DNA of 64,000 nucleotides from contig NBIV01000111.1 in NCBI GenBank assembly GCA_003194525.1, positions 1-64,000 of the forward strand, written 5' to 3'. The notes under the pieces are model-generated. The model had not been told where the DNA came from and did no database searches. It worked only from the letters and a program-made list of their open reading frames with translations. Within the stretch, counting starts at the first letter, position 1. Each line of letters starts with the position of its first letter. The translations under genes and the position numbers were made by a program. This DNA comes from Gracilariopsis chorda. Lineage: Eukaryota > Rhodophyta > Florideophyceae > Gracilariales > Gracilariaceae. Shown here piece by piece: positions 1 to 63,032 of this stretch.

Positions 1-1355
1 GATTCGCCCCCGGAAGAAGGGAAGGAAACACTTAGGATTGAGGGAACTCAAATGTACTAATCACCTCTACAAGAGGTTGGTATCGTACCGATATTATCGG
101 CTTGAGGACTCCTCATTGGATCGTACACCCGTGGTACGGGTAAGGTGAAGGACTGCATAAAGCGTATGCAGCTTTCCCTTCGTAACCAGTCCTTTTCTGG
201 AGAAAATCCCATATTGGTGTTAGACTTCCTCGGAAGGTTCGTTTCCGAAGCGGACATACTTGGTATGAACGAAGGACAGGCGTTTATTGCCCTACCGTAT
301 TTTCTACGTGGACTCGCCGAGGATCAATACAACTCTGTAAGAGGTTCTTCCCGAGCCTCCGAAGGAGGTGTAACGTGCTGGCCGGAAGCGGTTCAGTACC
401 TCTTGCGATCCTACGCGACGAACAACCCTATCAAGCGGCTATTCTCGCTTTACGCGATACCCGCCAGAAATCTGGAAAGACGGAAACCGAATTCTCGGTA
501 CGCCTTAATAAGGCTTTCCACAGGTGTGGCAATGTTTACTCCTCTGGAGAGCGCTGCACCATGTATATCGATGGATTAGATCCGCAATCCGTACGCTGGT
601 GGCCCGATATCGGGAGGATCGTCGTAACACCACCTACCTGGAGTTGATTCAACACGCGCAAGCGGAAGGCGATGCACTTCGAGCTCGTATCCCTGCATCG
701 AGTTTCGTCCCGCCAAGGCGTTGATGATGGAAGCCAGCTCACCATCTTTATCGCTAGCAGCGAGTGGACGCCTTCAAGGGACTACGATAACGTTTACCTC
801 GCTCAGGCCGGTGCTCAGTCTATTCGACCACGGAACTGCCGTCCACGACGGATGCGTCCTACGACAACAGCTCAGGAGAATTCCCTGCTGTATGTTGACG
901 GACCCCGTGTTCACGGACCTCGCATTCCCATTCGAATGGTGCCCTCCGGCAGAGTCGTCCGGATGAAGGATACCCGCCCAGTGGTGAGACACACAGATGC
1001 TCGTTCCGGTCAGGCGCCCCCACGCTCTGGAGTCATATGCCACATATGTTACGAACACGGTCACATTTCACCGGACTGCATCCTCACTTTGAGAGAAGTA
1101 ACCCGAGTGATCGGTAACTATGAAGCCCTTACTCCAGCGGAGAAGCAGACCGTTCCGATTGCCTCGTACTTACGAGCGAAGACGGACTTCCCCCGGAATA
1201 TCCCGGATACGAACCCGCGACACGCGTTGCTTTCCCCTGCTGAGCAGGTCACTAACCCCCGTCTTGTTCGACAAGACACCCCCGCTAACGCTCCACTGCT
1301 AGTGGTTCAGGATTCTGAGACCCCGCCTCAGGCGGAACGGGCTCAGGAAAACTGA
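1..1355 (+). pseudogene. gag: gag of chromovirus copy A, 5'-partial, frameshifted
   Basis: Structural polyprotein that forms the particle and binds RNA. The capsid-like part is recognised by alignment to copy B gag: VTCWPEAVQYLLRSYAT at about 370-420 matches VTCWSEAVQYLLRSYAT in copy B. The reading frame changes near 120-140 (entering frame 1), near 430 (frame 1 to 3) and near 590 (frame 3 to 2), and returns to frame 3 for the nucleocapsid part. A CCHC zinc knuckle with spacing C-x2-C-x4-H-x4-C (CHICYEHGHISPDC) lies at about 1037-1078. The frame ends with TGA at 1353-1355. The indels mean gag is dead in this copy. The 5' end is cut by the window edge. Confidence 0.85.
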
Positions 1356-4300
1356 TTTCGGGAGTCTCCCCTACGGGAGAGGCGCCCTCAGAGTTGGGTT
1401 GAAGGCGCCCGAGGCGTCACTGCCTCGCTCCCCGGTCAAAATCCTTACTAGGAAACAGGCCGTCTCAGACGTGAACTCTGAACACTTTAGTGTTCTGCGT
1501 CGACCGTGGAAACGTGTTCGAAACAACCGGTTCCCGGACAGAGTTTTGGTAATGGCCAAGAGAAACTACAAGGTATATGCTGACCTTGGCCTTTCCACCC
1601 AGTTTATGGTGCGAGTTCTCACTGTTTTGGACACAGGTGCAGGCCGGAACTTCATCGTTGAGTCGCTCCTGCCACCGTCATTGCAGTCTCAGATCCGCCA
1701 TGGCGTGATACCGGATGTCGCGGATGCGAATGATAACCCGTTATCAACGGTTGGGACAATCGACCTGGTCGTGCGCCTTGGCTCCTTTCTTGTGAAACTC
1801 AACTTTATTGTTTTTCGGAAACTTGCCGCCTTTTTGATCTTGGGATGCGACTTCTGTGACAGATTCGTCGATGCCATCAGGCCCCGTCTAAGACGTGTGG
1901 AAATGGAAGACGGCTCCTCTGTTTCGATCGTACGTCGTCCTCTACGACGTGCCTCGAAGAAGCACGTTCTATTACCTGCTTTGCAGGAACCCCCACCAGC
2001 TTCCCGGGACTCTACAAAGCTCCGCGTTGCCGCGTCTGTCCAACTTCCACCGGAATCCCAAGTTTGGGTACGAGTCACTTCCCGTCAACACTGTTTACGA
2101 GTAATTCAACCCCTTTCATCCTCATATGATAGGTATCAACTCGCCGTGGCGAATGGAGTAGCTCAAATTGAGCCCGAAAAGCCGTTCAACGTGCTGGTTG
2201 TCAATCTAGGCTCTACGCTCCAGTCACTGGTGAAAAACCAAGTCGTTGGTTCGGTAATGCCCCACCCCACCGCGATGGTTCCCACGAGAATGACCGCCGC
2301 CGATGTTCTCGGTCTCGTTCACTCTAAGGAGGGGGAGGACACTGCCGTCCAAATGTCGAAATGCTCGGATGCTAAGCCCGTTCAAACGAGTTACGACCGG
2401 ATTGATCCCGTCAAAGAACTCGAGGAACTCGAGCTCGGTCATGTGCCGGAATCGCACCGTGAACGTCTCCGTGAGGTGCTACGGAATTTCACCACGATGT
2501 GGGATGGCTCCCTAGGGGAGATTACTACAACGGAGCACCGGACTGACTTGCTACCTGATACCAGGCCGATCGCTCAGCACCCCTATAGGACAGGCCCTAA
2601 AGCTCGAGAAGAGGAAGAATTCCAAGTGCAAAAGATGCTCCGAGCTGGAGTAATAGAACCGGCTCAGCCGCCGTGGGCATCCCCAGTGGTACTGGCTCCA
2701 AAACCGGATGGATCCTGGCGCTTTTGCATCGACTACCGTCGACTGAACGCCGTAACCATCAAGGATGTGTACCCCATCCCAAGAATGGATGAGTACATCG
2801 ATTCAATCGGAAATGCTACCGTTTTCACGGCTCTAGACGCCAATTGGGGATACTGGCAGGTGCCTGTCAGGGAACAGGACCGCGACAAGACTGCTTTTGT
2901 TTGTCACTCCGGACTCTACCGTTTCAAACGGATGCCTTTTGGTTTGACCAATGCTCCCGCTACTTTCCAGCGTGCTATCGACATACTACTGGCTCGCTTC
3001 AAATGGCGTACATGCCTCGTCTACCTGGACGATATCATAGTATTCTCAGATAATCTGGATGACCACCTCACACACGTGAGAGATACCATGACCACGCTAC
3101 GTGAGGCTGGAGTTACTCTCAAGTTGAGGAAATGTGAGTTCTTTACAGATACAGTGAAGTATCTGGGGCACATAATCCGCCCTGGGCGTGTGATTATCGA
3201 GGAAGCTCGAGTTAAGTAGCTCCGTCAAGCGAAGGAACCCGCCACTCAAACGGAACTACGCTCCTTTCTAGGATTAGTCAACGTCTATCGACGGTTTATC
3301 CCGAATTGTGCGGATATCTCAGCACCCTTGAACGCGCTCTTGCGGAAAGGCCAACCACCGAAATTGGAACCCTTTACGTCCGTCGAGACGAAGGCGTTTA
3401 ACTCCCTCAAGGAGGCTGTAACATCAGCACCGATCTTATCGTTACCGAAACTCGGACTACCGTTTACCGTAGACACGGATGCTAGTGACTACCAAGTAGG
3501 TTGCGCTCTCTTTCAGACAACTCCCGAAGGAGAACGAACCCCTATTGGGTACTGGTCACGCTCACTGAATGTTCACGAGCGGAATTACTCCGTCTCGGAG
3601 AAAGAGTGTCTTGCAGTTGTGTGGGCACTCTACACTCTCCGCCCCTATCTTATGAGTGTGCACTTCACCGTTTACACGGGTCACTCGTCATTACGATGGC
3701 TCATGACAGTCTCTGAACCGTCAGGCCGCTTAATGCGTTGGAGGCTCCGCCTTGCAGAATTCGACTTCGAGGTGATCTACAAGAAGGGCACAAAGAACGC
3801 TCAGGCGGACGCGCTGTCGCGTTTACCCACGAATGGTGAAACTCTACCCACTGGGGACGAGTACATTCCTTGCTTCGTCGTCGACGGTCGAGAACCGGAG
3901 GCCCCGGACCGTGAACCCGATAACTCGGATGAAGAACCGGAATCGGATGATGAACTGGACGCACTACTCGTCTCGGACGATGCTCAGAAACCCCCACCGG
4001 GTAATTTCGTGCCAATACCCCCGGAGGAGATGGTCAGAGAACAACAAGGTGATCCCTTCTGTACTCAGATTCGCGCCTGACTTAATGGCGGTGCGCAACT
4101 CCCTTTCGAGGTGAATGATGTTGGATACCTCGTCAGGACGGTTCAAACAACCCCACAGGTAATGGTACCGCATACTCTACAATCTAGAGTGTTGCACTTG
4201 TCGCACTATGCAAAACTTGGTGGACACGCCGGTGGACGGAAACTTTACCTTACGTTGCGACGGAGTTACTATTGGCCAGCCATGGCTGTGGACTGCTACG

Positions 4301-6901
4301 CGACTGTGCGGTCATGCACGGAGTGTGCCAAAAACTGGGTCAAACTCCGGAAGCACTCAACGAAGTTGAAGTTATTTCCAGCACGGGCCCCTCTCGAGTT
4401 TGTCGCAATTGACCTCTTGGGACCGCTGCTCACCACAAAGCGTGGACATAAGTTTTTACTTGTTATCACGGATCGTTTCTCCAAGTTGGTTCGCACCGTA
4501 CCTTTACGGAAGATATCCGCTTTCGCGGTGGCGCAAGCCTTCGTCACCCATTGGTTCTTTGTCTACGGACCACCGGTTAACATTCTATCCGATAACGGAA
4601 AGCAATTCGCATCGCGATTCTTTGAGGACGTGTGTCGGATTCTCGGTATCAAGAATCTGTTCACAACGACCTACCACCAGTGTAATGGCCAAGTTGAGCG
4701 GTTTAACCGAATACTGTTAGTCTCTCTCTGTTCTTAAGTTGCTGATCACCCCAAAACATGGGACCTGTACACTGACGCCTTGACGTTTGCGTATAACACA
4801 CAGGTACACCGTACAACGGGTTTGACTCCATTTGAATTGGTACTTTCGCATCATCCGCCCGCCGTAGCGTTGGAACCCCAGCCTACGCTGGCGAACTTCC
4901 CTTCCGTGAAGGATTATCGCCAACGATGGAAAGCGTGGCTTACGAAGTTAATCCCGGTCGCCCGGAGCTCCATGGCACGAGCACAGGCCGCGTACAAGCG
5001 TGATTTTGACTCTCGTGTACGAGGTACAGCACCGCCAATTACGGAGGGTGACTACGTCTTCGTCCGTAAGGAGAACTGGAACCCTGATAAGGAGAAACAG
5101 CATAAGCTCTCACCCGTCGCGGATGGTCCCTACAAGGTCATATCAGTGGATAACGACACCTTAGTGGTGGAAATGAACGACGCTCATGAGCGGATTTCCC
5201 GCGATCGCGTTGTTATGGCACCGCCGCCCTCCGTAGAGGTTGCTTACCAAGATGAGAACCAACACACCCCAGTGGAACAACCCACATCTGTGGTTAACAG
5301 GCCTTCTGTGTTGCCACACCCTTCAAGGGGACTCTCAGATATACCGTCCTTATCGGACGCAGGCCCGAATGGCCTTTCTTCTCTAACGCCACCACGCGGT
5401 GTCTATCCCAGCAGTTTGGGCGCTTCTACCACTCCCCATGCCGCTCCATCTAAGGAGGGGGAGGAGAACCCTAACTCTCGTCCAGAGACTGAAACCGCTT
5501 CGTCGCGTCATGACAACCGTGGTGCACGGACCTCCGGAAACATCGAAAAGGATAATAGTGGACCGAGAGTTCCGTCTACTGACGTGCCATCTTCGCATTT
5601 GCGCGCTACAGCTCCCGCTGAACCCTCTCGAGGAATTTCTACCGCATCTGCGTCAGATCGCACTCCCCACCGGGATTCTAGTCTTCAAAATGCACCACGC
5701 AGTGGGAAGTCTCTCGCCAAACTGAAATCGTTGCAGGAAACTATTCGCGTTCGCGATACTGAACCGGCTGTGCCGTCAAGCGTTGATCCGCATTCCGTGG
5801 GTCACGGTTCGTCAACAACAGCTACGCTGGATAATACAGAGCAGGCCCTCGCGGGATCCTCTGAGCCGACTACATCGGACGTGGTTACTCCTACTGCACG
5901 GCAGAACACACCGGCCAGGCCGGGCAAGCACACAGTACAGGACGGAAGGAAAACGACCAGCAAGCTGGATTCTGGTTTAGGACCATCGCGCAGTCGCGAA
6001 CTCACTCCGAGTGTCTCGGTTGATCCCGGCAGTGTCGCCGAAGTCGCACCGGTGACTCCGGAACTAAAGCACGTCAAAGACGGAAATACTTCGTCGCCGA
6101 AGCGAGACAACACACCAGCAGCACCGTTGCAACCGCCCTCACATGAGGAGGCGGAACGCAACACGGCGCGGACAACCCTCGACCATCCGTTGCAAACGGC
6201 ACGTGACCCCGACACCGTACGGACGGCAAAGGCACCAATTACCGCCCGAGGCGAGTCGACGCGTACTGTACGACGCACCGTGGTACAACCGACTTCGTCG
6301 TCTGAAGCACCCCTGTCAAGACGGATATCTACACACAAACCTGTGGTTCGCGACCCAGATGCTCATCTTTCAGATGCGTTAGAAGCCCCTCAAAGGGTAT
6401 CGTCAATAGAAGCCCCCTCAAGGAGTGAAGAAACCGCGAAGCGGGATACTTTAACCCACAGCAAGGGTCCCGATACGCACCATCAAGTGGTCGACGCAAA
6501 CGGCCGTGCCGAGGACCTCCAGACCCGCGAAACGGATGAACCTACCCGGAAACCGGTTAATGACCCTCAAAGGGCATGGCCAGGCAGTACCAAGCCATGC
6601 CCTTCCGGGGAAGACTGTCCAATACCCGCCAGTGGTGGTAGAGCCTGCCGTGCAGGACGCGATAATGCGAACACGGCGAGGCCGGGACGTCTACAAACAG
6701 GAGTTTGTCTTTGACCACATTGTGGAAAATTCTTACCATCCAGATGGTTAAATCCAGTACCGCGTATGCTGGTACGGTTTTGGGCCCGAATATGATTCGG
6801 ATGAGCCGATAGAGCACCTCCCACGTTCGAAAGTGGTGTCATATCATCGCAGAACGCGAACAGGAATCCCGGCATCGGTGATAAACGCCCAAGTGGGATA
6901 A
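1303..6901 (+). pseudogene. pol: pol of chromovirus copy A (PR-RT-RH-IN-chromodomain)
   Basis: Polyprotein that processes gag, copies the RNA and integrates the DNA. The frame opens at 1303, overlapping the end of gag. Aspartic protease LDTGAG lies at 1627-1644. Reverse transcriptase has the catalytic YLDD at 3022-3033. The RNase H acidic site DTDASDYQ is near 3472. Integrase has an H2C2 zinc site at about 4186-4335 and D, D, E in the AIDLLG, LSDNGKQF and GQVERFN motifs. A GPY/F module (DGPYKV) is near 5122. A long Pro/Ser/Thr-rich linker follows, and a chromodomain (YRVCWYGF, EPIEHLPRS) ends at 6901. Stops in the same frame are TAG 3217, TGA 4078 and TAA 4735. One frameshift lies near 6600-6690 and a TAA at 6750 interrupts the chromodomain. 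Copy B aligns throughout. Confidence 0.92.
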
Positions 6902-7114: not shown

Positions 7115-9010
7115 TTAGTGGTTATTTCCCTGGAGTCGGGCTATCAGAGAATCCCGGATCGCGGTGACATGGCCACTGGCCTCGTTACCTCCCAGCCCCA
7201 CTTGGTGGAGGAACTGAGAGATCACGGCAGCCTGACCCGCAGGGGCCACGTTCGCTTCACCTGGCGTAGAGGACCCACCAGTGGGAAGACCGACCGACGG
7301 ATTGGACGGCTGACCCGCAGGGGCCATGTTCGCCTCACCTGGCGTAGAGGACCCACCAGTGGGAAGACCGACCGATGGATTGGACGGCTGACTCGCAGGG
7401 GCGACTCCAGGAGCATCCATACCATATGGTTCTCCCTCTGCCTCGGCGTGACCGGCACCTTCGTCGGGCTCGTTGTCGAACATCGGATCCTCACCGTCGT
7501 AGACGTTGTAGTACTCATCGGCGTCAACAAAACCGGTCGGATGCCCCTCGGGTATATATCTCGGTGCAAACCGCAGCTCGTTCGCTTCCTCCGCGGAGAT
7601 CTCATGCCCCTCTCAAGGTTTGAAGTAGATGAAGTCACCCGCGAGCGGAGTTCGACGCCCTGGCGACAGGTCCTGTATCCGGCTACCGGCAGTACGCCCA
7701 CTCTGCTCTAGAGGAACTGAAGCCCAGTCAACCTGGTCGATGAAATCGAGGAGCCCCGCTACTTCGTCAGCGGTTGCCTCACCACCTAGTGGGATTCGTA
7801 AGTCCAGCGCTCGGATGGCGGCACGGACCTGCAACGGGATGAGCCACAGTCTGTACTGGTCATAAACCTCCCAGAGGATGAAAGGCGCTGTGCGGACCGC
7901 CCATTCGGTGACCACCATGGACCAGAGCCCGGACTGAGGATCCTCGATGAGGTATGAGCCGTAATACGTGATCACGGGAGGCAACTCGATGTAGCAACCT
8001 CGGCACGCTTCGAGGTGTGACCACCACGGTGGAATCGGAACGTACCGACCCCTTCGGTTCACCACGCGGATGCGTTCGACTTCTACGTTCTGATACGGAA
8101 TCAAATACCCGAATCGGGACCGTGCTCGCCGCTCAAAGCGTATCATCAACAAGAAGTTGGCCCTCGCTAAGCGACGCATATAGCGGAATTCAGCCCGAAT
8201 GATCGGTAGTGTCCAGCACACCGCGTCTTGGCGCGCCGCGGGAATGCTTCTCCACAAGAGTGGTTCCAAACCCGCGAGGCGGTCGAGGTACCCCATTTCA
8301 CCTTGGGTGCGATACAATCCGATGTCGGAGCCCATACCATCGGGGATGGGATACTGAAAGGGAGCCCGGCGAAGCCGTTGATGAGCGAGTAAGACCAACG
8401 CCTCGTGCGCGGAAGCTGCTGATTCCCGACCCCGTCGGATTACCGTGTGCACGGGTATCGCTATGCGATTGCGCCAATCCCACGAAGTGGTCACGATTGT
8501 CGGAACGTCCCCCGGGAGCATTCCGTTTCCATCGGTATACATCGCCAGAAGCGCATCATTGAACACCGCAGTCGGGTGGAACCACGGCGCTAGCCGGAGA
8601 GTCATCGCATGTTGCGACGGCTGCAGCCCGACCAGCATGTCGTACGACGGCCACGCTGCCATTAGATACCCTCCCGTGGGAGCCGCACTCGCATTTGCGC
8701 CTGTTTGTTGCGAAGGAGTCGAGAGACCGCTCTGCGGTAAAGGCACGGAATGAAATCCGGAGAAGTACTGTAAAGGTTTGTTGCTGCCGGCGGTGCCGTT
8801 GTTGTTGCCGTTGTTGTTGTTCATCTTAGATGAAGGAAGCCGAGTAATCGGAGAAGAAGGCCGCGAAAGCGTACGTGTTGTTGGAAGAACCTCGGAAGAG
8901 TTGGTCGCAGATTCGCTGTTCGCAGCTAGGTGCTCGATACCCAGAGTGGGATGGAGAACCGGCGAACCGGACTTACATTTAAGGACCTTGCCCGGTGCTT
9001 CCGTCGCCAT
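7115..9010 (-). pseudogene. Antisense gene of the chromovirus, unknown function, one stop codon
   Basis: A minus-strand frame of 632 codons from ATG at 9010 to TAA at 7115, broken only by TGA at 7613-7615 (codon 466). It lies between pol and the 3' LTR and points against gag-pol. The N-terminus is Asn/Ser/Thr-rich (MNNNNGNNNG near codon 63). The middle is rich in Arg, Trp, Tyr and Pro. An acidic patch (EYYNVYDGEDP) follows, then a tail built of 26-residue repeats. Copy B holds a homologue at 63033-64000: RAEFRYMRR against RAEFRFLRK, GRYVPIPPWWSHLE against GRYVPIPAHWNHIE, LPPVITYYGSYL against LPLVLTYYDCEL. Similarity continues past the TGA, where copy B has Trp (TGG), so the stop is a recent transition. 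I see no signal peptide, membrane segment or known catalytic motif. Identity unknown. Confidence 0.8.
7232..7405 (-). repeat. 78-bp tandem repeat coding 26-residue units in the antisense gene
   Basis: Two full units and a partial third, starting at 7232, 7310 and 7388, exact period 78 bp. Because 78 is a multiple of three the repeat keeps the minus-strand frame, coding a Pro/Gly/Ser-rich unit (QPSNPSVGLPTGGSSTPGEA). Copy B lacks this repeat, so the tail is not essential to the family. Confidence 0.9.
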
Positions 9011-9030
9011 CGTGGATGTCGTATTCGCAC

Positions 9031-9045
9031 CTCAGGAGGGGGATA
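9031..9045 (+). other. 3' polypurine tract of chromovirus copy A
   Basis: CTCAGGAGGGGGATA directly precedes the LTR start (TGAAGTGC at 9046). This is the usual place for the plus-strand primer of an LTR retrotransposon. It shows that the antisense gene is inside the element rather than host DNA beside it. Confidence 0.7.
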
Positions 9046-9949
9046 TGAAGTGCAATCCTCAAGGAGGAAGACTCAGCGATGCCCTGTGGACTTGGTGTTT
9101 TTTTGCCGCTTTCGCGTGTTTATGATTACTACCGCTATTAGCGGGTGTCTCAGCCCTCAGCGGATCCGCGCTGTGCGCCAGGTGCACACCTGTGCATGTG
9201 CAGTGTGCCGCCCAAGGCGTGAGTGGACCACGTGTGACACGGATAGTGAAGAGGAGGTTGGCACCACGGTGTGGACATTTAGTTAACTTATATTTATTAT
9301 TTATTATTTATCTACGCTACAGTAGGGAGATTACTACATTATATAGTGGCTCGGCGACCTCGCCCTGACACTGAGTAAACTTCCCCAACCAGGGTTCTTG
9401 GCTCTAAGTCTTTTCCGCTTTCACGAGTCTTCTACACTCCTCGGAGGTAGAGCCGCGTTACTAACGGTAGACCTATCCACTCTGCGTCACTAGGAGTATC
9501 ACCGCCTTGGGCATTTGTCACTTAATTCACCACCGCCGTGTTCTCGCCCCTGTATAGGGTTCCTTTGTACCTTTTTCCGTGGTCCCGTTGGCCCACACCC
9601 CCGTCGCCCCCAATCGGGCATCCCCAGTATTTCCCTTGCCCCACTCTCGTGGTTCCTACCCCTTTGTGTGGTTGCTCGTCACCGCTGACGCGTGTCTCTC
9701 GTGCTGGTATCCCATGACGTCTTCCCCCACTTACGTGGACTCGTACTCCGTGGAAGGGCTGTTTTCCCATTCGTGGTGATCCTAATCCTACCGTTTCAAC
9801 TCTCCCCGCTTGGCGTGAGGGTGAGCCTCGGCTTTACCACCCGACTTCGTCGTGCTCATCCGGAGAGCCTCCGTTCGCTGTGTTACCCTCCAGAGGGGAA
9901 GATTCCGAACGTCTTCGTGTGTTGTCCCGCTTGCGGGTATTGCACTACA
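9046..9949 (+). repeat. 3' LTR of chromovirus copy A (904 bp)
   Basis: It starts TGAAGTGCAAT and ends ATTGCACTACA, a near-perfect terminal inverted repeat with the canonical TG...CA. A related LTR with the same ends lies at 37501-38296. An AT-rich core at about 9286-9320 (TATATTTATTATTTATT) could hold the promoter. The LTR is studded with short perfect hairpins, for example at 9132-9144, 9437-9446, 9886-9897 and 9926-9937. The right edge abuts the Copia gag remnant. Small open frames inside it are not conserved and are not called. Confidence 0.9.
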
Positions 9950-15787: not shown

Positions 15788-17484
15788 TTAAACCAAGAAT
15801 GCGTTACTACGCCTGTCAAGGGTTTGGACTGAGATGGGAGTGTTTCGGAGCAGAATCCTATTGAAGAGGAAATCGTCGTGGAAGAGCTCCGTTTCAAGGG
15901 TACTAAGTTGTTGGAACACTTCAGGGCGGATTGTGTTGCGTCTCTCATAAAAGAACTGGTCACCATTCCTCAGACGTTCAAACTCCCGCCTCAAAAGTTG
16001 TCCAAGAGTCCGGCCAACACCAGCGCCAAGAGCCTTGCTCTCGGAAACAAGCCCAATCCAAGCCTCGACATTATCCACAGTACCGTAAGCTCGTCTCAGC
16101 TTGTCCATCGTTTCCCTGTTACGGGAGATGTCACGGAAGGAACTGGCACGAGTTCCACGGAAGAACTCTCGCAGGTCATTGTACTTGGGAACGTTATGAT
16201 CGCGGCTTCGCTGCAGGTTGAGCGCCACCAAATCAAATCCTTCCTCCTCTTCAACGTTCTCGAACAGGAAGTTACGAAGCGTGTCCACAACCTTCTCGTC
16301 GAATTCCTGTGCACGGAATACAGAAGCTGCCCGCAACAGCTGACTAATTAGTCGACTGGGGACCTCATCGCTTTTAACGAAAAACATTTCCTCTGCGGGA
16401 ATGGGAGGAAGAACCATCCCACGGCCATTCATGCGCCTAACATTTCCACTGACGAGAGTGTGACCGAGTCGGAATCCAGCCGTGGTGAACTCTATGCTGA
16501 CAGTAGGATCAACGCTTCGAAGATATCCGGGATAAGGACGAAGATTTAAGGGGCCGAGAATTGCGGGTAGCCATTCCTTGTATATGATCTTTTGATACTG
16601 TGCGATGTTGATAGCTCGGGCTGTTTCATACTGCTGCACCGAGTCTGCGTTGGGGAATCGTTCATCGAGCACTCGACAGAGACGATTGTGTTCACGAACC
16701 CAAATGGTGTGCATGGCAGTTAACATAGGGGTTTCGTTGGCTCGGGCATCTCCAGCAATGAAGAATTCATCGGTAATGGTGGGGACATTCACGAAGCCTT
16801 TCGTGTTACGTGGCAAGAGTTCGGCTCCCGAAACTGCATCCCGCGAAGTTTTGAGCAGGCATGAATTGGGCACCCTCAAAACTCGGTTGCGATCTTCCTC
16901 GCTGCCGTAAACGGTGCTGAGATCGAGCGCGGAGGTGAGCACGGTAATCGGACGTTCTACGGGAGAAGTTTGATCAACTCGCTCCCGTTCCGACCGAATG
17001 AATTCCAGAGAAGCTACTGACAGCTCCGGATCACCCGTCGGAACTTCGATATCAAGGTGTTCAACCGGCTCTATGGGCGGGGGGACAACGCGAAGTCATG
17101 ATCAATAAACTGACCAAAGAACGTGAACATTTCATTCAGACCATGGCTGTTTTCAGTGGGACCTTCCTGAGCACTGACAATGTTGGAGACGAGTCTAGGA
17201 CTTGGTAAGTTTTGATCGGCAGGCTGCTGAGTACTAACGTTGAAATAACTGGCTTGGGCACGACGGGACTCGCCTAGAGTTGGATCGGCGTCGTTTGTAC
17301 AGAATCCTGTGATTGTTCGGGTGGTGATGCCGACGCATTCTGGACTGACTGCTATTCTGGCTGCCCTGCGTCGCGGTCCTCGCGAGGATAGAGAGGAGCT
17401 TCCAATACCAATACGGCGAGGGGCCTGTGCAAGTGCCGTGGTGGCAAATGCGGTGATGAGAAGTATGGCGATGAGCTTGATCAT
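15788..17484 (-). pseudogene. Secreted animal-type haem peroxidase, one-base frameshift
   Basis: ATG at 17484 starts a signal peptide (MIKLIAILLITAFATTALA). The haem peroxidase fold follows, with distal His in FGQFIDHDF (residue 129), catalytic Arg in IWVREHNRL, proximal His in FRLGHTLV and the SRDHNVPKYND motif. The family oxidises small substrates with H2O2, so a role in defence or halide/phenol oxidation outside the cell is plausible. There are no introns. The N-terminal part (to 17071) and the C-terminal part (from about 17085) are in different frames. The break falls at six G at 17079-17084, where seven would join FALSP to PIEPVEHLDIEVP without loss. It may be a true mutation or a base-calling error in a homopolymer. 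The rest looks under selection. Confidence 0.88.
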
Positions 17485-18487
17485 TTGAGAAGCAGATGCG
17501 ATGCAAATGAAGAAGTGAGGAGTTGAGAGGTGCACTGGAGGTGAGTGATGGACGAAGCGAATGGTGGAGGGCGGAATGGGATGGGTGGTTTTATAGAGGG
17601 AAGTGGGACAAGGAGGCGACGGAGCAAGTTCGTCGAAGTTGCACCGCAGATCTACGAAAACAGAGAAAAGCGTGAAGCAGCATGAAGCTGATGTTGACGG
17701 ATGAAGCGCGGGGGCGTGCCGCAGTGAAGACGAGTATGAACAATGCAATGCGGCAGCTTGATGTTGGCGGTTGAAGAGTTAAACGGTTAGTGATAGATAA
17801 CCCAGCCCCTGTGGTTAAACCAAAATTTAGAAAAAATAGCAAAGGCACACCAATCGCTCATTTAGACCATGGAAAAGATTTGAGACACTTGTACGCAAAA
17901 GTATCGCGACTGTTTGGGGGCGCAGTTATACACGTGTTAAGAGGATATGGTCAACGTGTTTTGTCTACAGAGCATAGATATTAGCATTGACATTTCTCCT
18001 TCAAGAGCAAATACGACAGCTAATAAATTATTTGACGTGCGCGGAAGAAGGCTCCATTTCCCACAACCACAACCTGTGGTGCGCTTACCATAAGCTTGAA
18101 TAATCTATCTCTGGAAGGCATAGAGCTACAATTGATCACGAGAGCACGTTTATATCCACTGGTTTAACTCGCAAGACAACCCAACGGATACTTCAGCTAC
18201 CTACATGTAGTTTGTAGTTGTCTGTGTACGTACGCGACTGGTGCCAGGTCGCCGAAAGCATTAGGTACTTTCGCCAAGACTTTTGAAAAACCACGGGAAA
18301 CGCGTACAACGAAGTTTGAAAGTAAAGAATATAGTTCAAAAGTTTGCGTTGAGGTCATCATAAAGCGATAGTGATTTAACAGCGATTTCTGAGCATTGCC
18401 TATACTGAGCTCACTAAAATACTTTTCTTTAAAAAGACTGCACTAGCTAGCAGAATTAGATACTATAATGAATAATCACTTCAGTAA
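17485..18487. other. Upstream region of the peroxidase gene, no gene seen
   Basis: It should contain the promoter and 5' UTR of the minus-strand peroxidase gene (about 17485-17800), then an AT-rich spacer. Open frames overlapping 17591-17848 are shadows. Confidence 0.45.
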
Positions 18488-31479: not shown

Positions 31480-32958
31480 AATCTTAGCTGATTCGATTAC
31501 GATGACTACCTTGCCGTCGTCAAGGATGGAGAAAAGGACAGGTTAATAAGCTGGCCAAGAGTCCAGAATCTCTGCATTCCGGAACCACCTCATGTGTGCA
31601 AATGCCAAACTCCGGACACTTAGCCGCCATTTCCGTTACTGAATCTTCACCTTCGCTTTCGTCCTTCTTTCTTGATATTGCGAAAATGTTCCATAATATC
31701 CGCCTGTCCCCAAGCCTTGCTTCCTTATTTCCGTTGACATCAATTGATTTCGGAGATCATCCCGGATGTTTTCAGAGAACACTTCAAGAACGTCTAGGTT
31801 ACAGGCCGCAACAATCGCACAAGATGCGCCCCTGTCAACGGACACTCCCAATGGGGTTCAAGTGGTCTGTATTCATTGGACATACTTTCGTGGAGTCATG
31901 GTACTCGGAAGCCTTTCAGATCTTTCTACATAATTCGCGCATCTTCAAAACCTCTCATACCTTTCCAATTCCAGTTTTACTACATAAGCACAAAGGTATA
32001 GTGGAGCTCACGAAAAAAACAGTATTGGTTCTTCACATTATTGACGACCTTAACCTTGTTCTCGTGGGGTGGCCTAATGAAGAAACTGCCAGACTCCAAC
32101 ACACTATTGAGTCGGTACTATCCCAAAATCAGTTGCCTGTGAAGCGATCCAAGTCATTCCCGCTCGGGTAATTCGAAAGAGATCAGTTATCGTTTCTAGG
32201 ATGTATATGGTACTTACGTGGTCACGTATTTAGGCCGAAGCTGGAGAAACTCGATCCCGCCTTGAAACGCGTTACCAAAGTCATACAATCCTCCTTAAAC
32301 GAGTCAGAAATTCGAACTACGGTGGGAAGGCTCATATGGATCGCTCTAGGATGCCGACCGTTGCTTTCCAAACTTTACCGTACTTTTCTATTTTTTGAAG
32401 AACCCTCCAAAGTGAACCCACAATAGAACGAGCTGTGTTTAGAGAGCTGACGCTGCTAGCCAAGCTCCTCCCCTTTTCGGGCATACGGCTGCAGCGACCC
32501 TATTGGAATCGTATAATTGCCTTTGACGCGTCTGAGGAAGCAGGTGCAGTCGTGTACACAGATTTCCCTCCCTTTTGGCTTTGACAACTCACCTGGTTGG
32601 CCTTCAAGGGCCACTCCCACCTTTTTATCACGGCAGAGGATCTCTCAAAATTCGTCCGTAGTCAAAACTGGAAGACGGCTTTTGTGCACAAGTGTCGTCG
32701 TCACGAGGATATCAATGCTCTTGAGGCCCACACTGCTGTTCTTGCTCTAGAATGTGCTGCGTCTTTCAATATAGGCGGACACAGTATCTTGCTGCTCTCT
32801 GATTCTATGGTCTCTATTGGGGCCTTTCGAAAAGGTCGTTCCTCCTCGCCCTTCATGTGCCTTCCTTGTCGACGATACGCCGCTCTATATATTGCGCATG
32901 GCTTAGATCCTTTCTTTATTCACATATCTACTCATTTCAACACCGCAGATGGCCCTTA
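31480..32958 (+). pseudogene. Reverse transcriptase and RNase H of DIRS-like copy B, frameshifted
   Basis: RT fragments in order: LAVVKDGEKDRLISWPR (near 31503, the K...RLI motif), FLDIAKMFHNIRL (near 31668, first catalytic Asp), LPMGFKWSVF (near 31844), HIIDDLNLV (near 32034, the xxDD active site) and FLGCIWYLRG (near 32194, thumb). RNase H follows: INALEAHTAVLAL near 32710, LLSDSMVSIGAF near 32790 and HISTHFNTADG near 32920. Frames change near 31590, 32165 and 32500 and there are further stops. The motif set and order fit the DIRS lineage, not Ty3 or Copia. Inactive. Confidence 0.8.
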
Positions 32959-33117: not shown

Positions 33118-34175
33118 ATGAGACCTTCTGGAGTAAGAAAAGATCTCATGGGAATGAAACGGGTGCATCCAAAACCCCGCAAATCATTGCTCTTCTCCGA
33201 CACCCGGAGAAATGACTTTGAACTACCTGATGAACACTTTTTTGCACGATACCCGCTTATCTCTTACACCTTGTCTGGCACAACTAGACGGCTGTATCAG
33301 GAAGCTTATATCTCCTGTAGGAAGTCCCTCCAGCGGATCCCACTTTCTTTCCAGGAACTTGACGAGTGCCTCGTGGACTATGTACATGACGCATTCCTCG
33401 AAAACCCTGCTGCAGGCCATCGGCAGAAGATCTGCTACACTTTGGCCTTTCTGTCATTTTCACTCACTTCTACCCAAACAAGTCTTCGACTGTCCCTTCG
33501 TGCTTTAGCTGGATGGCACAAGTCGATACTTGCCCTCGCCGCAATTCCATTCACCAGAACCTTCATGCTCCCATTTGCGGAATTCTGCATCTCCAAGCAC
33601 TGTGTCACCGCTGCAGTGGCCCTCTGTGTACAATGGTGCACTTATATGAGAGCCTCAGAGGTTCTTGCGCTACAGCGTTGTGATGTGGTTCTCCTACAAG
33701 ACGTTTGCCTTGCTTACACTGAAGCAAAGATCGTGGGAATCAACATTGAGAACTCGAAGACAGGGCCCATGCAGTTTACTCCCTTACGAGATGTCGCAGT
33801 AATTGCAATTCTTCAAAGTTGCCTGGAGCAGATTAGCCCCGTCTCAGAAATAAGCTGTTTGATTTGTCATACGCAAAGAATAACTCACTATTCAAAGACG
33901 CTGGCGGTCACTTTGGCGTGGACAAAAACCGGTTTAAAACTCACTCTGGACGCATCAGAGGTGCACTTTCCGACTACTTAAATGCACACTCCGCACAGAC
34001 TATAGCTCTTACCGGACGTTGGAAATCACTTACGTCACTGCAACGCTACCTCCCCAATGGTCGCTCTATTGTCACTCGGATGTCAACTTCTGTGTATACC
34101 CAGGAACGTGTTCGACAATTTTCGCAACGTTTTAGTAGTCTCCTGCAGCAATGTCTTTCTTACAAAAGAAACTAA
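33118..34175 (+). pseudogene. Tyrosine recombinase of DIRS-like copy B, one frameshift
   Basis: Homologue of the recombinase at 13487-14467: FFARYPLIS, YMRASEVLAL (Arg), NSKTGPMQFTPLRD (Lys), THSGRIRGA (His-x-x-Arg), TGRWKSLTSLQRYL (Trp and nucleophile Tyr). The frame from ATG 33118 runs to 33981 and becomes meaningless after about 33860. The end of the protein continues in another frame (33864-34175), so one indel near 33860 breaks it. All catalytic residues are still readable across the two frames. Confidence 0.88.
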
Positions 34176-45891: not shown

Positions 45892-46120
45892 TGTTGCACT
45901 ACTGAGTTGCACTACTGACGTAAGCTCAACAACAACTTACGCTGACATGGCCTCGTGCAGCTCGCGCTCCTCCGAGGATGAGCTAAAATAAACTCCTGAG
46001 TCGCGCTTGGCACTGCCTGCCAAATGCGGGGGACAGTGACGAAGAGGACGGACTTCTCACTGCTTTTTCTCCCCTTTGAACGGACCCTGTGCGCTGCGCG
46101 AAATGTCCACACAACCAATA
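45892..46120 (+). repeat. 5' LTR of Copia element 3 (229 bp)
   Basis: It starts TGTTGCACTACTGAG and ends CACAACCAATA. The start contains TTGCACTACTGA twice. TAAAATAAAC at about 45987 is a possible TATA element. The only differences from the 3' LTR are three bases near 46021-46026 (AAATGCGG against AAGGGCAG). Confidence 0.95.
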
Positions 46121-47452
46121 GTTATGGGCCCAGCACAGGGTAGCGCAAAACCCTTCGCGCCTACAGACCTCCCAATGTTCAATCCTGCGGGAGATTTGCA
46201 AGAGTATCGTCGGGAAGTCTCGCGTTGGGTTGAAACGATTCAAGCAGCGTCGCAACAAGGTTCCGATCGTCTTTACAAAACAGTTTATGCCACACTCGCA
46301 AGACACTTATACGACCGTGGTCTTCCGAGAGAACAGAAAACTATCGTCGACGAAGCTCAGAGGAAGAAACTTATCAACTACAAGCAAGCAGACCAGATTG
46401 AGGCCATCAAGCAGATTGTTAAGCTAATCGCAGTTGACCCCCCGATAGCAGTTGTTACACGCTTAATATCCTCGTTTAATGACGTTACGTCTTGTCGTCG
46501 GTCTCGTTTGGAAGACTTGAACTCGTTTGCTTCGCGATTTCGCGGTTTAGCCGCTAAAAACCTAATGCATGTTGGCTTATCTGCATCATCTCAGGTTGGC
46601 GAGGTACTTTCGATCACGCTCCTCAACAATGCTTTGCTCAGTGAAGAAACTCTGACCAACGCCAAGCTTCAGCTTGTAGCTTTAGCAGAGGCTCGAATGA
46701 AAGCCGAGGTTCAAGAAGAAATCTCTATTACAATGGAGTCACTTTCTCAAGGGTTGAAGGTATTCAGGGATCTGAAACAGGTGCTTCAACGAAACGAAAA
46801 CCGACCGCTATCTTCTGACAATGCAGCTACCGCTCGAAGCAAAGCTCAATCGCTCATATCACAAGTTACCAATGTGATTGATGGGAATGTTCAACTAGAG
46901 AATTACCTCACCGAAAAGAAAGCATCCGTTGAAGAAGAAATTGACATATTTTCTACTGGTCTCCGTTGCAAGCTCAATCTTGATGATGCAGTTACAGTCA
47001 TTCGCAACCTGACCTCGTCACCGAAGAGCGCAGAAAAGACCTACACGAAGTCGGAAATTGATAACATGGTATCACAACGAGTGGAACAGCGCGTTGAGCA
47101 GCGCCTTAATCAGGCTATGGCTGCATACCAGAAAAAGCTAGGTCTTCAATCTGATCGTTTGCGTCCCATGGGCTCGTCGTTTTCTGGACCCTTGCCTACA
47201 CAGAAACACAAAACTAGACCGCCCGCAGTTGTTGTCAAGGACAAGAAACGGAAGCCAGATGATCGAGGATTTTGTTACGACTGTGGCTCAAAAAACCATC
47301 GCCGAGGATCAGAAGAATGTGAAACTCCTAGATTCTACACGAAACGGCTTAGATCAGAAAAGTTGAATCCTTCAGAACAGGATCGGCCACACCATACTGA
47401 ACGCCGGGATTTTCGGCGGGGCTTCACCCCCTTGCAAACCAGTCGTCGTTAA
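46076..47452 (+). CDS. gag: gag of Copia element 3, open from inside the LTR
   Basis: Up to 458 residues. Three in-frame ATGs are possible: 46076 and 46103 inside the LTR and 46124 inside the primer-binding site. All lie before any leader, so the gag frame starts in or at the LTR edge. The body is helical and charged. The C-terminal part is basic with a Cys/His motif CYDCGSKNHRRGSEEC (C-x2-C-x4-H-x6-C, near 47273-47320), a zinc knuckle with wide last spacing. A repeated VEQRVEQRLNQ stretch before it suggests a coiled coil. It ends at TAA 47450, overlapping the pol frame by 52 bases. Confidence 0.88.
   Translation: MNGPCALREMSTQPIVMGPAQGSAKPFAPTDLPMFNPAGDLQEYRREVSRWVETIQAASQQGSDRLYKTVYATLARHLYDRGLPREQKTIVDEAQRKKLINYKQADQIEAIKQIVKLIAVDPPIAVVTRLISSFNDVTSCRRSRLEDLNSFASRFRGLAAKNLMHVGLSASSQVGEVLSITLLNNALLSEETLTNAKLQLVALAEARMKAEVQEEISITMESLSQGLKVFRDLKQVLQRNENRPLSSDNAATARSKAQSLISQVTNVIDGNVQLENYLTEKKASVEEEIDIFSTGLRCKLNLDDAVTVIRNLTSSPKSAEKTYTKSEIDNMVSQRVEQRVEQRLNQAMAAYQKKLGLQSDRLRPMGSSFSGPLPTQKHKTRPPAVVVKDKKRKPDDRGFCYDCGSKNHRRGSEECETPRFYTKRLRSEKLNPSEQDRPHHTERRDFRRGFTPLQTSRR
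46121..46136 (+). other. Primer-binding site of Copia element 3
   Basis: GTTATGGGCCCAGCAC follows the LTR directly and matches the complement of initiator tRNA-Met from the anticodon (GGGCCCAUAAC), as in Drosophila copia half-tRNA priming. An in-frame ATG of gag (46124) lies within it. Confidence 0.78.
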
Positions 47453-50400
47453 CTGCAGGTAGTGAAGCCTACTCAGATATAACGCCATCTAAGGATCCAA
47501 ATCCGATCCTTGACCCAGGCTGTCCGAAGAGTGTGGGAGGAATTGAATTGATCTCTCAGCTCTGCGCATCTCTGCGTATTGAGTTAGAACTCAAACCTTT
47601 AGATTGTGAACCATTTCTACATGGCTTTGGAGAACGCTGTGCCAATGCGCTCCCATTGTTCGCGATCTGGACACTAGAAGGTGAAGACGAATACGGAAAC
47701 GCTTTCTATATTCCGTTTTATGTAGTAGTTGGTGATGGACCCATTCTGCTAGGAAATGACTTACTCTCTCGTTCAGATGTGCTTGGCATTGCAAACCAAT
47801 CGCGCATTCCGAAAGGGGTCGCTGGACCAATTGAAATCCTTCTCAGAACGTACTGCACTGGACAAGATCTGTCCAAGCGCACCCGTCTTCTTCTCGTACC
47901 TTCCAGTATCAAGTCGATGAAAGCCTTTTTTGCTCCAACTTCGAAAACGAAGAGACAGTTCATTGAAAATGAAGAACTTTTTGCGAAACGGTTTCATGTT
48001 TATACCCATATGCGTCCAAGGGAAATGAAGAACCTCTGTCGACAAGCAAAACTTCTGACCAAAACTCTCGCAGCGCTTCTGGACGAAGCATATGACAAAT
48101 GCACAAGTTGCAAGTCGACTGGGCGGCCCCTTGCTTCCAGAAAAGTTTCATTCTCACGTCTTTTACAAAGCTTTAACGACCATTTGCAGGTTGACTTCAT
48201 GTTTGTTGCAGAGCTGGGAAATCTTCCCATTCTACACATGAAAGACGCAGCTACTGGCCTAACTGTGGCTTTATTGACATTCTCTCGTTCAATGCTTGAA
48301 GCACGGAAGTCCATTTTCTTGCACTGGATCACAGTACACGGACCTCCAAGAGAACTTTCAGGAGATCCCGAGTTCAACAATGATCAAATCCAACTCTTAT
48401 GTGCAGAGAATCAAATCAAGTTCTCTCCACGTCCTGCGAGAAGACACAACAAATTTGGTATTGTCGAATCTTCTCATGAGTCTGTATGCTATCTCATACA
48501 GCGATTACTAAAGGATCGTGAATACGCAATATCTCGAGGTATACCGGTCTCCTCAGACCATGAAATTGTCTCCAAAGCTGCTTTTCTAAAGAACATTCTC
48601 CAAGGCTCAAACCTAGTATCCAGTTTCGAGTTGGCTCGAGGTTACAGACCTTCAATCACTGGGCTTTCTCAAAGTCCAACCAGCAAGGACATTATCTCAG
48701 CGCATACAGAGCAAACCACACGGCGAGCTCTGCATCGTTTTTTGAGGTCTGGGGACATCAAAACGTTATCTCGAACGTTGCTTTCGCCCGGGACTCCGGT
48801 TTTCTTCTTCAGAAAAACCCAAAAACGTGGTGTCTGGCTTGAAGGATACGTAAACGAGACCTACAGCCATCTGGTCGCAGTCTCTTCTAAGCCCAAATCA
48901 GGCGGTAACAACTACGCTGTTGCGTACGAAGATCTGAGACTTAGACCGCTCAGTCCCCTTCTCAGAGACTTGGAACGTCTACAACTTGGTTTCCAAGAGC
49001 TGCCCTCCAAGATTATGGACAGCGTTAACGCTGTCGTGAAAGAACCTATCCTCCGACCAATCCCAAACCCACTAGTGGTAACTACGGATCATTCACCAAT
49101 GCAGATTGATGATGTCCTTGAACATTGTCCTTTGGACTACGCCGTTTGGGATGAACATCCAGCAAGTATTTCATATCTGGCAAAAACGCAGTTCCGTCAA
49201 TCCTTCAACGCTCCCTCTAGAGATATTGGTCTCTATGCATATTCGAAGATGAAACCATTACCTCTCAAGTCTGCTTCCCAACCAATACTTCGAGAACTCC
49301 GCAATTCTTTAGGATCAGGGCCTTTATCCGAACACAAGCTCCAATGCGTGCCCCGTTGGTTGCTGGATCATGCCATTGCCAACGAGAGAGAAGCTTACCG
49401 CAGAAATAAGGCATATAAACCGGTCTCCATTCGGTCTCTCTCTCGAAACGCCAACCTCATCTCTTCGCATCATTTCTTTGTGATCAAACATGACGGAGAG
49501 AGCAAAGCTTTGAAACTTAAATGCCGGCTCGTACCACATGGGAACAAGGACAAAGATAAAGACCAGTTGCGATCGGATTCGGCAACAGCCCAATTCCCTG
49601 CTATTAGACTGGTGCTCTCGATGGCAGTCCTGTTTCATTTTCGACTTGCCTCCATTGACATTAAGTCTGCTTATCTGCAAGCGGGCTCCATCAAACGTGA
49701 CATATATATGAGGCCTCCGAGAAGTTGGGTAGATACGTTTGACGAAGTCTGGAAAATACTTGTCCCAACGTATGGTCTCGTTGACTCTAGTCGCTTGTGG
49801 CAACTTTGTGTGGAGGATTGGTTGTTGAAGCGTGGTTTTGTCACGATTCCGGGACACCCTCAGCTGTTTCTTTTATGGGAGAATCAAGAAGTTGTCTTAA
49901 TTCTGGCAAAAGTGGTAGACGATATGATATTCGCAGGAAGCCATGAGGAACTGATTCGGTTTCATGAATCTATATCTGCACAGTTCGAGGTCGGAAGATT
50001 CTTGCAAGGCCAGGACATGGTTTTCAATCGTCTTTTCATCACTCAATTGCCAGACTTCTCAATACGAGTATCAATGAAGGAGTTCCAAGAAAAAATTGTT
50101 CCCCTTTCGGTTCCTCCTCCAAGGAAAAGGGAAAACGATGACATCTGCACAGCTACGGAACTACGCGATTTTCAGAGCTTGACGGGTAAGCTCAACTTTC
50201 TTGGTCATGGAGCACTCCCTCAAGCTTCAGTCGTTGCAAGCAAGCTCCAGCAACAGGTATCTCGCCTCAAGGTACACCACATGCGTCAGCTAAACAGCGC
50301 AACAAAGCAACTTAAGAGCCTTAACCCAGCTTTCCTTTACAAGGCCTTGCCCACCCCCGTTTCCTCTGCTTCACAGATACATCTCCTCAGTTTTAGTGAT

Positions 50401-50907
50401 GCTGCTACCGGTGCGACATCATACGGACAATCTGGATATGTTTCGGGAATACTTGCTTATCAAAGCTCTGATTGCATATATCATGTTATTGACTGGCATT
50501 CATCAAAACAGACGCGTGTTTCTTTTTCTTCTGCAGGAGCTGAAATCATTGCGGCAGCCTTTGCAACAGACCGATCTGTTTTTGTTTCGCAGACTCTTCC
50601 CTACTTCTTCCATGAGTCTGGTTATGCAAAACAAATTCTGACAAGTCTTTTCGTTGACTCTTTTGGTCTTTATTCTACAATCTCTACGTTGCATGAACAG
50701 AGAGACTACCGCCTACGACCTACCGTTTCAAGGCTTCGAGATTCGTTTGAATCAGGGGAACTACACGAAATTTGCTGGCTTCCTGGATCATTAAATATCG
50801 CGGACGCCTTAACGAAGATCAATCCACACTCGTTTCGTTTATTAAACCGAATAATGAACGAAGGAACACTGCCGAAAAAGGTTTCAGCGCATCTGGAGAA
50901 ACATTAG
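47401..50907 (+). CDS. pol: pol of Copia element 3 (PR-IN-RT-RH), intact
   Basis: The frame opens at 47401 in the -1 frame relative to gag and has no ATG near its start, so it is probably made as a gag-pol fusion by -1 frameshifting in the 52-base overlap. A protease-like ILDPG is near 47506. Counting from 47533: integrase zinc ligands are near H155/H159 and C190/C193, and catalytic D221, D278 and E312 (GIVESSHE). RT has SIDIKSAYLQ (D709) and VVDD (794-797). RNase H has SFSDAATG near 957 and ADALTK near the end. The domain order is that of Copia. There are no stops over 1,168 codons, and all catalytic residues are present except that the protease reads DPG instead of DSG/DTG. Confidence 0.92.
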   Translation, partial: TPGFSAGLHPLANQSSLTAGSEAYSDITPSKDPNPILDPGCPKSVGGIELISQLCASLRIELELKPLDCEPFLHGFGERCANALPLFAIWTLEGEDEYGNAFYIPFYVVVGDGPILLGNDLLSRSDVLGIANQSRIPKGVAGPIEILLRTYCTGQDLSKRTRLLLVPSSIKSMKAFFAPTSKTKRQFIENEELFAKRFHVYTHMRPREMKNLCRQAKLLTKTLAALLDEAYDKCTSCKSTGRPLASRKVSFSRLLQSFNDHLQVDFMFVAELGNLPILHMKDAATGLTVALLTFSRSMLEARKSIFLHWITVHGPPRELSGDPEFNNDQIQLLCAENQIKFSPRPARRHNKFGIVESSHESVCYLIQRLLKDREYAISRGIPVSSDHEIVSKAAFLKNILQGSNLVSSFELARGYRPSITGLSQSPTSKDIISAHTEQTTRRALHRFLRSGDIKTLSRTLLSPGTPVFFFRKTQKRGVWLEGYVNETYSHLVAVSSKPKSGGNNYAVAYEDLRLRPLSPLLRDLERLQLGFQELPSKIMDSVNAVVKEPILRPIPNPLVVTTDHSPMQIDDVLEHCPLDYAVWDEHPASISYLAKTQFRQSFNAPSRDIGLYAYSKMKPLPLKSASQPILRELRNSLGSGPLSEHKLQCVPRWLLDHAIANEREAYRRNKAYKPVSIRSLSRNANLISSHHFFVIKHDGESKALKLKCRLVPHGNKDKDKDQLRSDSATAQFPAIRLVLSMAVLFHFRLASIDIKSAYLQAGSIKRDIYMRPPRSWVDTFDEVWKILVPTYGLVDSSRLWQLCVEDWLLKRGFVTIPGHPQLFLLWENQEVVLILAKVVDDMIFAGSHEELIRFHESISAQFEVGRFLQGQDMVFNRLFITQLPDFSIRVSMKEFQEKIVPLSVPPPRKRENDDICTATELRDFQSLTGKLNFLGHGALPQASVVASKLQQQVSRLKVHHMRQLNSATKQLKSLNPAFLYKALPTPVSSASQIHLLSFSDAATGATSYGQSGYVSGILAYQSSDCIYHVIDWHSSKQTRVSFSSAGAEIIAAAFATDRSVFVSQTLPYFFHESGYAKQILTSLFVDSFGLYSTISTLHEQRDYRLRPTVSRLRDSFESGELHEICWLPGSLNIADALTKINPHSFRLLNRIMNEGTLPKKVSAHLEKH

Positions 50908-54118: not shown

Positions 54119-54368
54119 TACAGGCTGCACACCATGTATGTGAAATATAGGTGGCATACCCACCATGGTTCGGGAAAAGAAGCGATCCCAGCTCATTTGG
54201 TGATTTTTATATATCCTAATCTCTTTAGTTATAACATTATTCGTATGAAATGTGGACTGATTACTGTAGCATTTGGAATGCATTGGTATCGGTATGCCGG
54301 ATCGTGAGCTGAGTCGAGGACGACATTCATAGTATGGTGCTACAGTACATGGCTTTCCAGCAAGGACT
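54119..54368. other. Flank between the tandem repeat and chromovirus copy B
   Basis: No gene. An imperfect inverted pair (GTGCTACAGTACATGGC near 54333 and GCATGGTACTGTAGTGGG near 54434) spans the expected LTR start. Confidence 0.35.
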
Positions 54369-62552: not shown

Positions 62553-63032
62553 CCCCTATCGTGTGCAGTGTACTGCGTCATCGCATGGACTCATGAAACA
62601 GATGCATCAGAAGATGAAGTAGAAGAGTTATGAAGACATACGAAGATGAAGTAGGAAGCTACGAAGAACTGGAGACTTGAAGCCAAGAAGACAGAAGCCA
62701 ATGGTTCGCATGGAAAAAGAAGTATGAGGGATATAGGTTTCAAGTTTACTTGGATTCATACCGATAATCGGTTGATGGTCAATCTAGATACCTAGTTAAC
62801 CATGAGGGCTCATGTTCATACGATTTCGGAGAAGCTGCATCAACCCAGCACGATTTTGACCCTGTACGAGCATAGGAGGGAGCCCCGTTTCAATGAGGAA
62901 ATTACTCAAGTTGTCGAGGTTATTCTCTCCACTGCTTGTCGGTTGCTGCTGCGCCGTTTCGTTTGCAGGACCCTGCTCTTCAGGTTTCTCTTGTGAAACC
63001 GACCCAACAGCAGGAGCTGGAGTAACTTGTGC
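62553..63032. other. Purine-rich spacer between pol and the antisense gene in copy B
   Basis: 62595-62695 is rich in GAAGA and AGAAG. The rest shows no open frame conserved with copy A. Same position as the purine tract at 6913-6984. Confidence 0.45.

Follow-up and report, generated by a model that had tools for sequence, protein, structure and literature searches.

Between pol and the 3′ LTR of two LTR retrotransposons of the red alga Gracilariopsis chorda, the minus strand holds long reading frames that resemble each other, which raises the question of whether these frames form a gene and, if so, what that gene does for the elements that carry it. Both elements lie in the window, by which we mean the whole 64,000-nt stretch that was analyzed (contig C111, positions 1–64000), and the genome searched comprises 91.3 Mb in 1081 contigs. 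An earlier interpretation of the bare letters (the sequence-only reading) had described homologous minus-strand frames in the two elements, copies A and B, and our coordinates and frames confirm them. It had also assigned them to two families; the shared antisense gene stands, but the number does not, since we count at least nine antisense families, 32–65% alike. Copy A belongs to family F1 and copy B to F4. Families F1 to F8 were read as DNA through one representative each (L010, L076, L075, L041, L049, L061, L067 and L077, respectively), with pairwise identities of 35–65% among F1–F7, and the ninth is represented by a database protein, P0005.

In copy A, a gag region spread over several frames (145–1355, plus strand) is followed by pol in pieces (1399–6714, plus strand), with a reverse transcriptase (RT; Pfam RVT_1, 3.2e-38) and a chromodomain that was tested in the F1 sibling copy L016. 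The antisense gene occupies 7115–9010 on the minus strand, with its ATG at 9010 and a 632-codon frame that contains one in-frame TGA (7613–7615) before the terminal stop. Only a 35-nt leader (9011–9045, minus strand) separates the ATG from the LTR edge; it includes a polypurine-tract-like run, and its sense strand ends GGGGGATA. The 3′ LTR (9046–9949, plus strand) starts with TG and ends with CA, its 5′ partner lying outside the contig. We placed the LTR start at 9046 because the first 205 bases recur as spaced pairs, 10.36–10.75 kb apart, on five contigs (C22, C30, C148, C26 and C14; 40 matches scored); one more pair, on C177, is spaced at 8.9 kb.

Copy B is a complete inserted element with both LTRs and a 5-bp target-site duplication, ATTAC (54260–54264, with the second copy at contig 65387–65391). 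Its 5′ LTR (54265–55003, plus strand, 739 bp, TG start and CA end) shares 98.9% identity with the 3′ LTR (contig 64648–65386). A primer-binding-site-like stretch, TGGTCTCCCGACATAGAA (55009–55026, plus strand), is shared, with one base changed, by the F1 copy L069 (865–882); a search for tRNA genes within the 64-kb window found none, and no tRNA match to this stretch was obtained. Then come gag (55639–56814, plus strand) and pol in pieces (57816–62552, plus strand), with the chromodomain at about 62361–62480 (Pfam Chromo, 5.6e-8). The antisense gene covers 62796–64000 of the window on the minus strand and begins at an ATG at contig 64499, past the window end. The frame previously given as 63033–64000 is thus present but incomplete, the full protein extending further at both ends, from contig 64499 to 62796. 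Premature stops lie at 64092–64094 (beyond the window), 63504–63506 and 63033–63035, and the F4 family's own stop, judged against the 567-aa sibling L041, is at 62796–62798. The antisense frame is therefore broken in both window copies. Similarity runs across the differing stops, namely the copy A TGA and the three premature stops of copy B, as had been reported, and the sequence blocks named at that time (RAEF(R)(Y/F), GRYVPIP, WDVY and others) are recognizable, with conservative changes, in seven families of this genome.

Several other features share the window. A frame at 13487–14467 matches Pfam Phage_integrase (1.3e-7), and a similar-looking frame at 33118–33981, with no Pfam match, lies near an RT-like frame at 31596–32171 (1.3e-5, below the cut-off); we take the first two possibly to belong to DIRS-like elements. 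A Copia-type element at 46076–50907 has an open gag-like frame of 458 aa (no Pfam match) and a pol of 1124 aa (RVT_2, 5.9e-19). An animal-type haem peroxidase at 15788–16942 on the minus strand (Pfam, 1.5e-98) is likely a host gene, of which the upstream frame at 17071–17748 may be the first part.

The hosts of the antisense gene had been called chromoviruses, and pieces from F1, F4 (copy B), F5, F6 and F7 do carry chromodomains above the Pfam cut-off. Assignment to the Ty3 type rests on gene order together with this domain, the RVT_1 match showing an RT. In common with chromoviruses, the red-algal elements possess an RT, an integrase, a chromodomain at the integrase end, LTRs and a 5-bp target duplication; they differ in having the extra antisense gene.

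Searches of the alga's own genome for the antisense protein gave 92 matches with the copy A piece and at least 150 with the copy B piece. When the coordinates from the RT search and from protein searches with four antisense queries (the copy A and copy B pieces, P0003 and P0005) were pooled, leaving out repeats of one place and second pieces of one match, at least 258 merged genomic places matched the protein, many of them stop-free; this figure, reached once overlaps had been merged, takes in incomplete and broken copies, may count separated pieces of one copy twice and, as with all our genome-search counts, is treated as a lower bound. Further open copies, proposed as a check on the original claim, were found: 25 of 47 full-length F1 matches are stop-free over the 465-aa query part (counted by eye, and including copy A, whose stop sits just past the query end), as are 55 of the 58 matches that are 54–56% identical to P0005, namely F2 and its nearest kin (also counted by eye).

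The layout recurs as well. Among the best 150 of 3380 RT candidates in the genome search, at least 55 have an antisense match 3.6–4.9 kb downstream on the opposite strand, and no same-strand match at that distance occurs among the matches listed for these 150. All 55 paired matches, each within 5 kb, thus lie on the strand opposite to pol, unlike a sense-oriented envelope-like gene. The 95 unpaired RTs are not evidence for absence, since the listed matches are a lower bound and contigs end early; two of their neighborhoods were inspected, one of which (C6) holds, at the predicted place, an intact 594-aa minus-strand frame 33–42% identical to F1–F7, while the other (C201) is without the gene. 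The lone same-strand match listed, 7.9 kb from its RT, is a second, inverted copy on C705, and in two cases, one on C832 and one on C110, a match precedes an RT by less than 6 kb (the C832 match is also paired with the RT at 2045). On C705 (9272−, 12834+) and C701 (7761−, 12204+), antisense genes on opposite strands form pairs 2–3 kb apart, which are either tail-to-tail insertions or assembly palindromes. The C201 element is a compact chromovirus (L078, C201:81801–84800) in which integrase and chromodomain are followed, about 170 bases on, by a gag-like frame (labelled by eye), and tblastn with F1–F7 and P0001–P0004 at E 0.01 found no antisense gene there. Because this compact family is without it, the antisense gene is a feature of some lineages rather than of every chromovirus of this genome.

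That the frame is a protein-coding gene is almost certain. Stop-free runs in the eight family representatives span 546–640 codons (the F2 run being cut by the end of the sequence examined), against a maximum of 307 codons in 200 simple base shuffles per representative, which rules out chance open frames. The remaining five frames have 9–33 stops each in the eight families, and the 9–29 stops in every sense frame rule out a mirror effect of a sense-strand gene.

The conclusion that the protein was under selection also stands, synonymous change being far above nonsynonymous change between families. Over the F1–F7 core (317–325 codons, 21 pairs), pN was 0.14–0.44 and pS 0.66–0.81. Omega, limited to the 4 of 21 pairs in which dS was computable and with F8 outside the test, was 0.094 (F4–F7), 0.098 (F5–F7), 0.261 (F1–F7) and 0.278 (F3–F4). 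Differences between families fall in excess on third positions (for F5–F7, 56/31/166 by codon position). When the other five frames were scored in three pairs, four gave the reverse pattern, and one sense frame, with pN/pS of 0.33–0.48, looked similar because wobble positions are shared. Selection is not visible within the family of copy A, where 13 intact F1 copies gave an omega of 0.69, dN fell below dS in 61 of 78 pairs, and variable sites were distributed 88/94/98 by codon position, with no third-position excess; these copies were drawn from the 15 of 30 F1 loci whose frames reach 540 aa or more, after L024 and L034 had been dropped because their ends differ. This ratio is the one expected for copies drifting after insertion and alone gives no support for selection. 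Identities of pol and of the antisense protein rank alike in the pairs compared (67%/43% for F1–F3, 51%/35% for F1–F4 and 68%/55% for F4–F5), the F3 pol being that of L006, which was assigned to F3 by antisense match and not from its own antisense sequence. Taken as a whole, the elements very probably make and need the antisense protein.

The protein has about 550–640 residues (546–640 aa in eight families); variable ends flank a conserved core of some 325 residues (L010 143–467). Besides the first Met, 28 columns are invariant over 11 sequences, a number that falls when 19 more varied or incomplete sequences are compared. In agreement with the sequence-only reading, it belongs to no known family in the collections searched: 19 members gave no convincing Pfam family, NCBIfam gave no match, and PDB sequences gave none even at E 10. 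Weak Pfam matches to VirE1 (E 0.018), DUF6127 (3 of 19 members, best E 0.1) and others, as well as to the YafO toxin for the copy B piece (E 0.17), were below cut-offs and were taken as chance. A search for relatives in viral contigs returned 22 pattern matches, none confirmed (records of the G. chorda genome possibly lie outside that collection), and a third protein-database search added only P0009, a weak match at E 1.8e-4. One member, P0005, stands in public annotation as 'hypothetical protein BWQ96_03215 [Gracilariopsis chorda]', with its gene at C30:292265–293737; residues 1–491 match C30 at 100%, and the C-terminal part, which is not in one piece with the rest, perhaps reflects a wrongly predicted intron. 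In the nine own-genome rows for which core limits were found automatically (the procedure failed in several others), the core has a pI of 7.2–9.5 and the tail a pI of 4.1–4.6; P0003 and P0004 have no acidic tail. A simple nuclear-signal pattern is present in only 7 of 20 members.

The protein is also poor in lysine, with 1–8 lysines against 38–62 arginines per 546–640 aa across eight families, and 11–14 lysines in the distant P0003, P0004 and P0007. In copies A and B, the gag and pol pieces contain 4.0–6.6% lysine; two host genes of the window are also low (1.5% and 2.3%). AAA and AAG triplets number 40 in the frame, while the other two frames of that strand contain 110 and 61, and because they are rarer in the frame, the scarcity goes beyond strand base content alone, although in F3, F5, F7 and F8 one of the other frames shows little or no such difference (F7, 8 versus 12 and 4; F8, 5 versus 17 and 5). 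Conserved lysine-free stretches have been reported, in a passage of PMC10169902, as a shield from ubiquitylation. We use the lysine scarcity as a hint of ubiquitin escape only in the sense of a clue.

With its ATG 35 nt from the LTR, the F1 frame leaves only the LTR and this short spacer as start sites for its transcript, unless transcription begins further upstream, outside the element. Junctions were readable in 26 of the 30 loci L039–L068, copies of one family not being independent: all 18 readable F5 loci have TATATAA 36–42 nt inward from the LTR edge, and all 5 readable F4 loci have CATAAAT 42 nt inward from it. No TATA-like box was found at that place in F1 (3 rows), F6 (2) or F7 (1), TATA-like strings in F1 and F7 occurring only further out in the LTR. 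The long F5 frame continues into the LTR, and the true F5 start, going by the sequence, may be a later ATG.

From these observations we propose that elements of a Ty3-type chromovirus lineage of G. chorda possess an additional gene, which runs against gag-pol between pol and the 3′ LTR and whose protein would be made from its own minus-strand mRNA starting in or next to the 3′ LTR, as the 35-nt spacing in F1 suggests. More tentatively, the protein might act in trans as an accessory regulator of expression, silencing escape or nuclear steps, and its lack of lysine might spare it from ubiquitin-driven turnover. We put the probability of this main reading, a separately transcribed accessory gene encoding what may be, by analogy, a trans-acting regulator or counter-defense factor, at about 0.5. 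A more far-reaching form of it, in which a 'stealth' protein of new fold, largely purged of lysine against ubiquitin and expressed from a promoter at the junction of polypurine tract and 3′ LTR, shields the element from silencing or turnover, seems to us doubtful; if it is true, antisense accessory genes of great age would exist beyond plants, fungi and retroviruses, and this protein would be a candidate for transposon-encoded counter-defense.

A regulator is not the only product that such a gene could encode, and a particle protein with a structural or packaging role, or one residing in a membrane (capsid- or envelope-like), is an unlikely but arguable alternative. The large conserved core would suit it, as would the pace of change between copies A and B, which is of the order of that of gag or faster (gag, 56% similar over 96 aa; antisense protein, 37% over 382 aa). 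Profile comparison, however, found no similarity to the copy B gag or integrase-end piece, so that a duplicate of either was rejected, and the antisense orientation is unlike that of env. The usual hydropathy limit for a membrane span is 1.6; the maximum 19-residue mean ranges over 0.94–1.97 in 20 members and exceeds this limit in 5 of them (L049, L050, L067, P0004 and P0007), whereas 15 stay below it, and a membrane span appears unlikely from the sequences.

It is rather improbable that the ancestral element captured a host or viral gene in reverse and kept it for the job of its source. Absence from the compact chromovirus family of the same genome would fit such a capture, as would the protein's lack of resemblance to any gag or pol piece compared, but it has no convincing relative in Pfam, NCBIfam or PDB, and no free-standing source gene was seen, a weak point given that most places were examined by coordinates only. 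This reading concerns origin and could be compatible with our main one.

We consider it very unlikely that the antisense transcript itself matters, through dsRNA, silencing or interference, with the frame incidental. Roles of antisense RNA are discussed for plant elements in part of PMC7264820, but as a sole explanation this is contradicted by codon-level selection between families and by stops in every other frame, and the long frames are open in many copies. An artefact, whether a sense-gene mirror or chance frames, is scarcely credible given the sense-frame stops and the shuffles, the one sense frame with a low pN/pS owing this to shared wobble positions.

Returning to the accessory-gene reading, the closest parallels in layout come from plants. 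Passages of PMC7264820 and PMC11963269 describe antisense genes in Ty3/Tat elements, namely Grande gene23, RIRE2 and a Retand ORF with Transposase_28/TRP28 (PF04195), which likewise lie between pol and the 3′ LTR, occur in most copies of a family and are conserved like other element proteins; for the red-algal gene, 'most copies' applies among the matches listed. A role as trans-acting regulator is proposed for Grande gene23, which has an antisense transcript of its own and a nuclear protein. Part of PMC7264820 places a promoter in the region upstream of gene23, whereas in the red-algal F1 elements just 35 nt lie between start codon and LTR. Retand is described as a non-chromovirus, whereas the red-algal hosts are chromoviruses. 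A relation to TRP28 (PF04195) was rejected, with 0 of 19 members matching at E ≤ 1 and no genome match at E ≤ 10, in a search whose controls were without a plant genome. The red-algal gene thus resembles the plant genes in layout and perhaps, by analogy, in use; membership is unsupported.

Outside plants, HBZ of HTLV-1 is a small bZIP factor, as against a red-algal core of about 325 residues, and the two are likened by layout only. Parts of PMC7264820 and PMC11963269 describe HBZ as a minus-strand gene near the 3′ LTR, as in the red-algal elements, and a passage of PMC7264820 mentions Boty of Botrytis cinerea, an LTR element from outside the plants whose antisense frame also sits between pol and 3′ LTR and which we liken by description only. 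By analogy with retroviral antisense genes, the red-algal gene too is likely to have an antisense promoter within or beside the 3′ LTR. Our literature search, whose coverage left out most subscription journals, returned no paper on the antisense protein or on an antisense gene in a chromovirus.

In a tree of the protein, F3 has P0001 as its sister, and F1, F2 and P0005 are joined by P0008, a fragment from Agarophyton chilense that covers 35% of the alignment columns. The tree leaves four inner forks open and puts P0007 on a long branch. Because proteins from elsewhere are nested among the families of this genome, the sequences suggest that the antisense families are older than the split between Gracilariopsis chorda and Agarophyton, with transfer between species also possible.

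Antisense genes of LTR retrotransposons have so far been mainly a plant observation, with one fungal case. The red-algal protein is a sizeable unnamed family, with at least 258 merged match places in one genome and at least one member annotated as hypothetical (P0005). A protein that does not detectably resemble the plant one and occupies the equivalent position and strand, under selection between families and probably predating the split of G. chorda from Agarophyton, suggests either repeated origins of this arrangement or an age far greater than assumed, and the red-algal gene provides a second case for finding what antisense element genes do.
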